The position numbers were made by a program, and so were the translations under genes. This document shows, piece after piece, positions 2,674 to 5,633 of a DNA stretch of 5,654 nt. This DNA comes from Lentzea sp. (GTDB taxonomy: Bacteria; Actinomycetota; Actinomycetes; Mycobacteriales; Pseudonocardiaceae): NCBI GenBank assembly GCA_030146905.1, contig JASLAV010000018.1, positions 1-5,654 on the forward strand, written 5' to 3'. Positions within the stretch are counted from its first letter, which is position 1; the number at the start of each line of letters is the position of its first letter. Below the pieces are notes generated by a model. The model saw nothing but the letters and a program-made list of their open reading frames with translations, made no database searches and was not told the DNA's origin.

Positions 2674-4167
2674 GTGGATGATCCAAATCTGGCAGCTCGC
2701 ACGGAAGTCGGCACGCCCCCTGAGAAGGAGCGAGTCTGGCCCGCGGGCAAGCTGGAAGCGATGCCCATCAGGAAACTGCCCGACGCGCCACCGTCGATCC
2801 ACCTGCTGGGCCCCACCGTCTTCCTGGTGGCACTCGGCGTGGGCATGGGCGAGGCCTACATGTGGCCCCGGCTCGTGCTGTTGTTCGGTCCGGACATCCG
2901 ATGGCTCTTCCTGATCGGCGTGACGCTGCAGGCCGTCGTGATGCTGGAGATGGCCCGGTACGCCATGGCGACGGGCGAGAGCATCTTCTTCGGCGCGGCC
3001 CGCGTGTTCAAACCGATCATGTGGTTCTTCTTCATCGTCGCGATGGCCGTCTACATCTGGCCCGGACACCTCTCCGCGGGCGCGGCGGCGCTGGAGCGGA
3101 TCACCGGCATACCGTGGACGATCTCGGCCTGTGTGGGCCTGATCCTGGTCGGTGTGCTGTTCAGCTTGGCGAAGGTCATCTACAACCTTCTCGAGAACCT
3201 GCTGTCCATCCTCATCGGCGTGCTCGTCGTCAGCACCGCCATCGTCGCGGCGATGGTCGGCACGTGGCAGGACCTGGTCACCACGGTGACCGGCATGTTC
3301 CAGTTCGGCTACCTGCCGGCGGAGGCGCTGTCGGCGACGTGGTTCCCGGTCATCGTCGGATCGATCGCCTTCGCGGGCCCGTCCGGCATGCAGCAGATGT
3401 GGTACACGCTGCACCTGCGCGACAGCGGCGCCGGCATGGGCGCGCACATCCCGAAGGTGCGCGGTCTGCGGCACGCGGGCAAAGAGGAGGAGATGCCCAG
3501 CCGCGGCTTCATGTTCGACACCTCGGACCCGGCCGAGATGGCGAAGTGGAAGGGCTGGCGGCGCTGGGTGACGTTCGACGCGCTGCTGCTCTTCTGGGGC
3601 ATCACGATGCTCGTCACCGTCTCCTTCACCGTCCTCGCCCAGGCGGCCAACCGGGAGAGCCCGAACGTGAAGGCGCTGATCGAGGCCGGCGAACGGGAAG
3701 CGGCGCTCAACGGCATGTCGGACGCCTTCGCCTCCGCCGGCGGACCGGTCCTCGGCGCGGTCTTCCTCGGGTTCATCGCGTTGATCGGCCTGAACGCCAC
3801 GCTGGGCCTCTTCGACTCGTTCTCCCGCGGCCAGGCCGACATGGCCTACCACTTCGTGCGCGGCGCGAAGCGGTTCGGCATGTCGCACCTCTACGCGGGG
3901 TTCCTGTGGGGCGTCATCACGTTCGGCATCATCATCCTGCTGTGGGGACCGGCGGACGGACCGGGAGCGATCCTCGACGTCCTCGCGTTCCTGTCGACGT
4001 TCGCGATGGGCGCGTACTGCGTGGTGCTGCTGCTCGTGAACAACCGGATGCTGCCGAAACCCATCCGGCCGAAGCTGATCACGAACATCATCATCGGGCT
4101 GGGCGCCGTGTTCTACCTCGGCATGCTCTTCTACAGCCTGGTGCGCTTCGGCGTCGTGGTGGACTGA
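2674..4167 (+). CDS. Divergent Nramp/SLC11-like membrane transporter lacking canonical metal-site motifs
   Basis: Starting at GTG 2674 the product is 497 residues: a ~42-residue hydrophilic N-terminus, then about eleven predicted membrane helices (roughly 44-69, 76-97, 114-135, 148-168, 173-196, 222-245, 299-323, 357-380, 404-424, 432-455, 468-490). The order and count fit the LeuT-fold Nramp family, whose classical members co-import Mn2+/Fe2+ with protons. The GP start of helix 1 (46-47) is kept, but the DPGN position reads GMGE (57-60). In helix 6 the MPH motif appears as MQQ (239-241). A long charged loop (~250-297) joins helices 6 and 7. The changed substrate site makes classical Mn/Fe transport doubtful. 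Mg2+, another cation or an organic acid are open options. The next gene overlaps its stop codon, suggesting a partner protein. The family call rests on remembered motifs and topology, not on a search; another APC-superfamily permease is the main alternative. Confidence 0.72.
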   Translation: MDDPNLAARTEVGTPPEKERVWPAGKLEAMPIRKLPDAPPSIHLLGPTVFLVALGVGMGEAYMWPRLVLLFGPDIRWLFLIGVTLQAVVMLEMARYAMATGESIFFGAARVFKPIMWFFFIVAMAVYIWPGHLSAGAAALERITGIPWTISACVGLILVGVLFSLAKVIYNLLENLLSILIGVLVVSTAIVAAMVGTWQDLVTTVTGMFQFGYLPAEALSATWFPVIVGSIAFAGPSGMQQMWYTLHLRDSGAGMGAHIPKVRGLRHAGKEEEMPSRGFMFDTSDPAEMAKWKGWRRWVTFDALLLFWGITMLVTVSFTVLAQAANRESPNVKALIEAGEREAALNGMSDAFASAGGPVLGAVFLGFIALIGLNATLGLFDSFSRGQADMAYHFVRGAKRFGMSHLYAGFLWGVITFGIIILLWGPADGPGAILDVLAFLSTFAMGAYCVVLLLVNNRMLPKPIRPKLITNIIIGLGAVFYLGMLFYSLVRFGVVVD

Positions 4168-4595
4168 TGGAGACCAGGGAGGCAATCCCGGGTGCGGCGG
4201 TCGGACTCGCCGCAGGGGTCGTCGCGGGTGGGCTGGCGGCCGTGGTCGGCCAGCCCCTCTCGTGGGCGGCGGTCACCACGCTCGCGCTCGGCGTGCCGCT
4301 CGCGGTGCTCGGTGGCGGACTCGGCGTCCTGCTGGCGTCCGGCCGGCTCCCGCGCGGGCGGTTCGCCCCCGTCGCGCTGTTCTGGCTGGCGGGTTTCCCG
4401 CTGGCCAGGCTGGTGCACGAGATCTCCGTGAGCGTGGTGCTCACCGGCCAGGTCCGGTTTCCCCCGGACCTGGCGGGCTTCCTCGCCTACCAGGGGATCG
4501 TGAGCCTCGGCTGGGCGATCGGTTTCCTGTGGCTGCACGAGCGGATCGCACTGCGCCTGCGCATGCGCGCCGCCGCTGCCGCCACGTCCCGCTGA
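4167..4595 (+). CDS. Small four-helix integral membrane protein of unknown function, overlapping the Nramp-like gene
   Basis: I do not recognise this 142-residue protein. Four hydrophobic segments are clear: about 9-28 and 33-57 (rich in Gly, Ala, Val and Leu), 66-86, and 103-124. Segment 3 ends in RLVHEI (81-86), with His84 and Glu85 at the membrane edge, and segment 4 ends in LHERIALRLRMR (123-134), a basic tail likely to face the cytoplasm. A short linker (87-102) holds the only polar stretch of note. Its ATG shares one base with the TGA of the upstream gene (TGATG, 4165-4169), a layout typical of translational coupling and roughly equimolar production. This suggests, but does not show, that it is a subunit or assembly partner of the Nramp-like protein. 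The high GC at third codon positions matches the neighbours, which supports it being a real gene. The terC-like gene follows after 21 bp. Confidence 0.78.
   Translation: METREAIPGAAVGLAAGVVAGGLAAVVGQPLSWAAVTTLALGVPLAVLGGGLGVLLASGRLPRGRFAPVALFWLAGFPLARLVHEISVSVVLTGQVRFPPDLAGFLAYQGIVSLGWAIGFLWLHERIALRLRMRAAAAATSR
4447..4474 (+). other. Intragenic perfect hairpin (11-bp stem, 6-base loop)
   Basis: GCCAGGTCCGG (4447-4457) and CCGGACCTGGC (4464-4474) are exact reverse complements around TTTCCC, inside the coding region of the small membrane protein (residues ~94-103). After one mismatch, two further pairs are possible (4444-4445 with 4476-4477). It could affect mRNA stability or polarity between the Nramp-like pair and the terC-like gene. 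A chance structure in GC-rich coding DNA is also plausible, so no function is assigned. Confidence 0.5.
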
Positions 4596-4616: not shown

Positions 4617-5633
4617 ATGCTGGATCTACCTGTCTGGGTGTGGGCCGCGACGATGGGCGGCATCGCCGCCATCATCGCGTTCGACTTCTACCTGGTGGTG
4701 CGCAAACCGCACGAACCGTCGTTCCGCGAGTCGTTGTACTGGGTGCTCTTCTACGTCGGCCTGGCCGTCCTGTTCGGGCTCGGCGTCACGGTGTTCGCCG
4801 GGCCCGGTCACGGCGGCGAGTTCTTCGCCGGCTGGATCACCGAGTACTCGCTGAGCGTCGACAACCTGTTCGTGTTCGTGATCATCATGGCCAGGTTCGC
4901 CGTGCCGCGGGAGTACCGGCAGAAGGTGCTCATCGTCGGCATCATCCTGGCCCTGTTGCTGCGAGCGGTGTTCATCGCGCTCGGAGCGCAGGCGATCTCG
5001 CGGTTCGACTGGCTGTTCTACTTCTTCGGCGCCTTCCTGATCTTCACCGCGTGGAAGCTGGTGAAGCAGGACGAGACCGAGGAGGCGGACGTCCCGGAGA
5101 ACGCCGCCCTGCGCGCGGTGAAGAGGTTCCTGCCGGCGACCACGATCTACCACGGTGCCTCGCTGACGACGCGCATCGACGGCAAGCGCGTGGTCACGCC
5201 CATGCTGATCGTCATGGTCGCGGTCGGCACCACGGACCTGCTGTTCGCGGTCGACTCGATCCCGGCGATCTTCGGCCTCACCAAGGAGCCCTACCTGGTG
5301 CTGACCGCCAACGCGTTCGCGTTGATGGGCCTGCGCCAGCTGTTCTTCCTGGTGGGCGGCCTGCTGGACCGCCTGGTGCACCTGAGCAAGGGTCTCGCGG
5401 TGGTGCTCGCGTTCATCGGGTTCAAGCTCATCTTCGAGGCGATGCACCACCACGGCGTCTCGTGGGCTCCGGAGAGCCCGATCGTGGTGTCTCTCGGGGT
5501 GATCGTGGTGACGCTCGCCATCACCACGGTGTGGAGCCTGCACACCTCCAGGCGGGCGGCCCGGTCGGCGGTGGAGGGTGCCGAGAGTGCGCAGAGGAGC
5601 GAGGACGCTCCCGTGAAGGACTCTCAACCGTGA
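4617..5633 (+). CDS. TerC-family integral membrane protein (probable metal ion exporter)
   Basis: This 338-residue protein has the hallmarks of the TerC family: EYSLSVDNLFVFVII at 76-90 (Glu76, Asp82) and TDLLFAVDSIPAIF at 206-219 (Asp207, Asp213), two inverted-repeat-like membrane motifs with conserved acids. About nine hydrophobic segments are visible (near 7-28, 40-61, 72-92, 105-125, 131-149, 195-215, 224-247, 257-277, 288-308), with a charged cytoplasmic-type loop at 150-194 and a hydrophilic tail from 310. The length is normal for the family. Characterised relatives such as Alx of E. coli and MeeF/MeeY of Bacillus export Mn2+, in some cases to metallate secreted proteins, and the founding member is linked to tellurite resistance. 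GGAGGA at 4605-4610, six bases before the ATG, supports the start. It lies 21 bp after the small membrane gene, so co-transcription is likely. That gap is too short for a yybP-ykoY manganese riboswitch, which often precedes such genes. Confidence 0.92.
   Translation: MLDLPVWVWAATMGGIAAIIAFDFYLVVRKPHEPSFRESLYWVLFYVGLAVLFGLGVTVFAGPGHGGEFFAGWITEYSLSVDNLFVFVIIMARFAVPREYRQKVLIVGIILALLLRAVFIALGAQAISRFDWLFYFFGAFLIFTAWKLVKQDETEEADVPENAALRAVKRFLPATTIYHGASLTTRIDGKRVVTPMLIVMVAVGTTDLLFAVDSIPAIFGLTKEPYLVLTANAFALMGLRQLFFLVGGLLDRLVHLSKGLAVVLAFIGFKLIFEAMHHHGVSWAPESPIVVSLGVIVVTLAITTVWSLHTSRRAARSAVEGAESAQRSEDAPVKDSQP

Follow-up and report, generated by a model that had tools for sequence, protein, structure and literature searches.

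Which substrate would an Nramp-like transporter carry when its metal-binding motifs have been replaced and its gene lies beside genes of oxalate catabolism? The question is raised by a 5,654-nucleotide stretch of DNA from Lentzea sp. (the window), in which five genes follow one another on the forward strand: the 3' end of frc, for formyl-CoA:oxalate CoA-transferase (1-339; 112 codons, with the 5' end outside the window; CoA_transf_3, 62.4 bits; TIGR03253, 139.5 bits for this tail); acl, for an NDP-forming acyl-CoA ligase of 715 residues with ATP-grasp_5, CoA_binding_2, Succ_CoA_lig and Ligase_CoA_2 domains (375-2522); the transporter gene, nrp (2674-4167); duf142, for a small four-helix membrane protein (4167-4595); and a gene for a 338-residue membrane protein of the TerC/Alx metal-homeostasis family (4617-5633; TIGR03718, 368.6 bits against a cut-off of 246.4). 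The original prediction had placed frc and an acyl-CoA ligase upstream of the transporter, and this is what we find. Lentzea terrae, the source of an orthologue 96% identical to the window transporter, has a full-length frc orthologue (locus L001) that scores 662.7 bits with TIGR03253, over the cut-off of 504.2, and 482 bits with YfdW in the PDB; acl has a sub-cut-off match to 4-hydroxybutyrate--CoA ligase. The nrp reading frame runs from a GTG at 2674 to the stop at 4167 (497 residues), with other possible in-frame starts at 2566 (ATG) and 2665 (TTG), and the ATG of duf142 overlaps its stop (TGATG). Since the gap between acl and nrp holds two inverted repeats (2530-2566, with 18-nucleotide arms that are 89% complementary, and 2586-2630, with 19-nucleotide arms that are 84% complementary), the expression level of nrp is possibly its own; the repeats could be attenuator- or terminator-like structures that set transporter expression apart.

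By fold, nrp belongs to the Slc11/Nramp superfamily: its AF2 model has a LeuT-type fold that, in a structure search, lies closest to Nramp structures, at 11-18% identity in the structural alignments. It scores 19.3 bits with Pfam PF01566, under the gathering cut-off of 29.8, and 465.9 bits with NCBIfam NF037982 (Nramp_1), a full-length match against a cut-off of 50. At that cut-off NF037982 also takes in DPGN Nramps and the GSGE-type paralogues discussed below, so that, with the oxalate-linked clade covered as well, the name "Nramp_1 divalent metal transporter" looks too broad. In our tree the classical group is split off at 100/98 and nrp does not fall among the ordinary Mn/Fe Nramps. Judged from sequence, nrp forms a separate clade within a known fold, marked by GMGE in helix 1 and GPSGMQQMW in helix 6.

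The replaced motifs had been read by eye as DPGN to GMGE at residues 57-60 of helix 1 and MPH to MQQ at residues 239-241 of helix 6. A MAFFT alignment with classical Nramps bears out the helix 1 reading, and the structural alignment with DraNramp, which begins at residue 45 of the model and 44 of the chain, fits this register provided helix 1 is ungapped, the fit being one of start positions only. In helix 6 the same MAFFT alignment, which has a one-residue gap close by, pairs MPH with S237-G238-M239, so the proposed position was shifted by some two residues; in either register the classical ligands are lost. All 81 of 81 aligned sequences (80 loci and the window) have the same residues at G46-E60, and hence GMGE, and at A232-W243, the stretch that contains GPSGMQQMW. 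The site signature is roughly GxxE / about AxxS, with helix 6 reading about AGPS in a register uncertain by 1-2 residues, in contrast to the DxxN and A/CxxM of classical Slc11/Nramp proteins such as DraNramp, ScaDMT and MntH; by this classical Mn/Fe signature, nrp is not one of them.

The gain of Glu60 had also been read, with the loss of Asp and Asn, as pointing to a changed substrate. A wider GxGE alignment of 41 proteins, 17 of them GSGE-type paralogues, has E60 throughout, and being common to this group the residue is by itself uninformative on the substrate, oxalate included. The GSGE-type paralogues, also matched by NF037982, are 24-29% identical to nrp in this alignment and share G59, E60 and a helix 3 stretch with R95, Y96 and A99-G101, but they differ in having Tyr for R66 (15/17), Trp for H132 (16/17) and Asn for Q241 (17/17). 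None of the 18 stretches (8-20 kb) around such paralogues, here 25-30% identical, gave a match to frc, acl or the thiamine-enzyme gene that precedes frc in relatives of the window.

Does nrp nevertheless import a metal? It might still import a divalent metal, Mg2+ or Mn2+, for the thiamine and ligase enzymes, in which case its place in the operon would reflect cofactor supply. The Nramp fold and the NCBIfam name speak for this, as does YcsG (MntG) of B. subtilis, a relative of PxpT that is argued to be a Mn2+ importer, over-expression having raised cellular Mn (PMC10448178). Mg2+ in particular, one of the original suggestions, gains little support: the NRMT signature is given as DxxG / TxxA-T, beside DxxN and A/CxxM for classical Nramps, in PMC8806188, and nrp differs from NRMT Mg2+ transporters such as EleNRMT both in its GxxE / about AxxS site and in standing apart in the tree from two NRMT-like rows (named by motif), so that it does not group as an NRMT. 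The loss of the DxxN / AxxM site counts against metal import more generally, as do two points taken up below, namely that a carboxylate-type MFS carrier occupies the same slot in related operons, and that an exporter-type TerC beside an importer would be futile unless the metal enters with something else. We regard a plain metal importer as quite unlikely.

Loss of the metal ligands has a parallel in PxpT, an Nramp relative that Corynebacterium glutamicum requires for growth on 5-oxoproline, as established by genetics (PMC13274462). In four PxpT-type proteins helix 1 has GPGT and helix 6 has VPYN, so the classical ligands are lost there too; the first (L173) lies beside a pxpA match and, by eye, a putative ycsI, the second (L186) lies beside a ycsI-like gene, the third (L176) has a pxpA match at a distance of about 5 kb, and the fourth (L184) is PxpT-type by motif alone. 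The PxpT/YcsG proteins differ from nrp in their GPGT motif, in their pxpA and ycsI-like neighbours, neither of which is present in the window, and in lying on the opposite side of the 100/98 split, so nrp is not assigned to them. The Nramp outgroup has earlier been proposed as a bridge that may connect metal carriers with carriers of other, non-metal substrates (PMC4072509). Among the matches listed for open PMC papers, some of them represented by title and the start of the abstract, we found none that joins Nramp with bacterial oxalate catabolism.

We examined how closely nrp is tied to oxalate genes by scanning the best 80 of 229 relatives in genome contigs, with the window and Lentzea proteins as queries. 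Among these loci, frc and acl were each found in 75/80, a lyase-like thiamine enzyme (oxc-like) in 74/80, TerC in 66/80 and duf142 in 80/80 at E <= 1e-8 (75/80 under a stricter rule). Five loci have neither frc nor acl, namely L062, L067, L068 and L071, which are extra Kibdelosporangium copies, and L075, whose contig is cut just before nrp. Because these 80 loci were chosen by similarity, we turned as well to 296 genomes of the class, sampled evenly around Lentzea terrae, of which 10 have nrp and 25 have frc. In each of the 10 nrp carriers frc lies within 4 kb of nrp, compared with frc in 15 of the 286 other genomes (Fisher p 2.7e-12; 9/9 and p 3.2e-11 without the centre genome), and the order oxc-like - frc - acl - nrp - duf142 is kept in 10/10. 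Close homologues of nrp therefore do occur near frc.

The thiamine enzyme complicates the assignment to oxalate. Its gene lies upstream of frc in relatives, outside the window (4773-6458 in L001), and is strongly conserved, but its scores with TIGR03254 (252.6 bits in L001, 243.1 in L024) fall far below the cut-off of 739.4 for canonical oxalyl-CoA decarboxylase; 2-hydroxyacyl-CoA lyase is its nearest solved structure, at 282 bits versus 214. The residues that we take to be catalytic in oxalyl-CoA decarboxylase are not kept, which leaves room for a 2-hydroxy acid or some other C2 acid in place of oxalate. In the class sample, canonical oxc and nrp, present in 10 genomes each of the 296, share no genome. 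As the enzyme is not a canonical decarboxylase, nrp might carry a different small acid (glycolate, glyoxylate, lactate or a 2-hydroxy acid), which frc and acl would activate and the lyase-like enzyme would cleave. The frc product, being over the curated cut-off for the oxalate enzyme, argues the other way, and we consider such a cargo unlikely in view of this and of the oxidoreductase described below.

What else can occupy the position downstream of acl? Our survey drew on the class sample, two family samples and L001, and covered 61 frc loci, of which 54 have acl and 7 do not; in 3 of the 54 the contig ends less than 400 bases after acl, leaving 51 readable slots. Before counting we set aside four class-sample frc genes beside canonical oxc, the loci L153, L154, L156 and L161, and, from the 69 frc hits in the family samples, 11 copies (seven 53-56% identical and four 73-85% identical, two of these four partial), among which the L153 and L154 copies recur. 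The slot is occupied by nrp in 30 cases, by an MFS carrier in 17 and by another Nramp, with IGASH in helix 1, in 4, proportions that are not natural frequencies since the genomes at the centre of the family samples had been picked for their MFS or IGASH gene. An MFS carrier is also found in 4/7 frc loci that have no acl. Five of the slot MFS carriers match the oxalate/formate and lactate families of NCBIfam below the curated cut-offs, and one of them scores 88.9 bits with an L-lactate carrier (6g9x) and 75.2 bits with OxlT (8hpj) in the PDB. The slot after acl thus acts as an acid-permease slot; that the MFS family includes lactate carriers is also in keeping with another small acid as cargo. 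The OxlT/OFA-family carriers share this slot with nrp in related genomes, but they have the MFS fold and no adjoining duf142 or TerC (0/17), whereas nrp is Nramp-like and matches no MFS family of Pfam or NCBIfam. The IGASH Nramps (L168 4681-6219, L169 12143-13705, L170 12437-13984 and L171 6742-8256) likewise follow oxc-like - frc - acl, and score 72-76 bits with the Pfam Nramp family.

A second context comes from five distant genomes, Rubrobacter xylanophilus and relatives, whose nrp proteins are 64-67% identical to that of the window. In 5/5 of them nrp and duf142 adjoin not frc but a complete three-gene oxidoreductase with oxalate-oxidoreductase-like alpha, beta and delta-type genes (763-4454 in L134, whose nrp protein is 97% identical to Rxyl_0924 of R. 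xylanophilus DSM 9941; also L132, L133, L135 and L136). The three L134 subunits score higher with Moorella oxalate oxidoreductase (5c4i) than with pyruvate:ferredoxin oxidoreductase (9bt4), at 354 versus 216, 308 versus 199 and 71 versus 51 bits, and those of the other four genomes are 80-99% identical to them. Oxalate oxidoreductase is the best NCBIfam family for each L134 subunit (399.9, 355.2 and 104.7 bits for alpha, beta and delta), yet these scores lie below the equivalog cut-offs of 500, 590 and 230, so that oxalate activity is likely rather than certified. Equivalents of R31, R109 and N143, which we take to be substrate residues of the Moorella enzyme, and of F117, presumably in its switch loop, are kept in 5/5, and D116 is replaced by Ala. 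Oxalate oxidoreductase is known mainly from anaerobic acetogens. The nearness to the oxalate enzyme and the kept residues, in the roles assumed here, weigh against another small acid; an aspartate-glyoxylate aminotransferase-like gene in 2/5 of these loci would suit it.

Taken with the loss of the metal signature, the presence of nrp where relatives keep an organic-acid carrier points to a probable oxalate importer, and on balance we favour oxalate as its natural cargo. The proposed change of substrate towards oxalate is thus well supported by context (frc in 10/10 sampled carriers, interchange with MFS carriers in the slot, the oxidoreductase in 5/5), with transport itself a prediction; nrp forms a new clade, probably with a new substrate, on a known fold, with one recent organic-acid precedent among Nramps. 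As an Nramp-fold (LeuT-fold) secondary transporter, it would take up oxalate in place of, or in addition to, metal as the first step of oxalate breakdown. Oxalate would pass by way of the site that lies between helices 1 and 6, perhaps accompanied by H+ or complexed with a metal. Against oxalate, beyond the thiamine enzyme, stand the acidic E60 in the site, awkward for a bare dianion and better suited to a cation, an anion bridged by metal or an acid in protonated form; the 4/80 loci (the extra Kibdelosporangium copies) without oxalate genes; the separate occurrence of canonical oxc in the sample; the oxidoreductase scores below the equivalog cut-offs; and the case made for Mn2+ import by the related YcsG.

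The two genes downstream bear on how oxalate might enter. The AF2 model of duf142 (pLDDT 95.3) has helices at 6-26, 31-57, 66-93 and 102-141, the window protein matches no Pfam family at E <= 1, and the residues invariant in 29/29 sequences include P68, W73, R81, G119, W122 and E125. It adjoins nrp in 30/30 slot loci and 5/5 oxidoreductase loci, and is beside an MFS carrier in 0/17 and an IGASH Nramp in 0/4 slot loci; duf142 is a predicted partner subunit of nrp. TerC adjoins nrp in 25/30 slot loci compared with 0/17 for the MFS carrier (p 9.6e-9, kinship ignored), and in 5/5 oxidoreductase loci nrp is followed by a gene of the TerC family that falls in a different subfamily (in L134, YjbE according to NCBIfam).

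These associations allow a sharper form of the oxalate reading, in which nrp would be a symporter that carries a divalent metal and oxalate together, much as CitM-type carriers transport metal-citrate, and TerC would expel the surplus metal. The original prediction had included a metal-oxalate complex among the possible substrates, which the TerC association favours indirectly, co-transport itself being predicted. The kept acidic E60 fits such a symporter, as do the Mn efflux activity of TerC proteins in Bacillus subtilis (PMC10550928) and the reports of both 5-oxoproline and Mn for Nramp relatives in the papers already cited. On the other hand, the p value given above ignores kinship; of the five nrp slots without TerC two are at contig ends, but L147, L149 and L150 have room downstream; the scan of the best 80 of the 229 loci gave no TerC for 14, five of them the loci without frc and acl; the IGASH Nramps in the same slot have TerC in only 1/4; and TerC proteins also take part in metalation of secreted proteins, according to the same paper, PMC10550928. 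We consider joint transport possible but hold it tentatively. More tentative again is a three-part uptake module, in which the Nramp-fold carrier and a dedicated four-helix subunit would import the complex and TerC would return the accompanying metal.

Were such a module real, carboxylate uptake would have arisen on the Nramp scaffold three times or more (PxpT, the nrp clade and the IGASH Nramps), and the 5-oxoproline and Mn2+ claims for PxpT and YcsG would be reconciled. If nrp transports oxalate, it would be an uptake carrier outside the MFS that bears on the oxalate-carbonate cycle of soils; duf142 would then be a possible accessory subunit of a LeuT-fold carrier, TerC would have a part in the uptake of organic acids, and a set of genes in soil actinobacteria now named "Nramp family divalent metal transporter" by NCBI would be misnamed. 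The family makes it testable whether non-canonical Nramps beside carboxylate-catabolism genes move acid, metal or both.

Two further features of the loci may be recorded. The extra Kibdelosporangium copies (L062, L067, L068 and L071) consist of nrp with duf142 and lie away from oxalate genes; by eye, L062 is near glycerol kinase and aquaporin genes, and the neighbours of L071 include a dioxygenase, an amidohydrolase and a CoA transferase of the CaiB type. A pair of genes resembling succinate-CoA ligase, which may supply the CoA donor, is divergent from the operon in Lentzea terrae (L001 2665-4649) and downstream of it in other genera, with the beta-type gene in 55/80 and the alpha-type gene in 52/80 of the best 80 of 229 loci.
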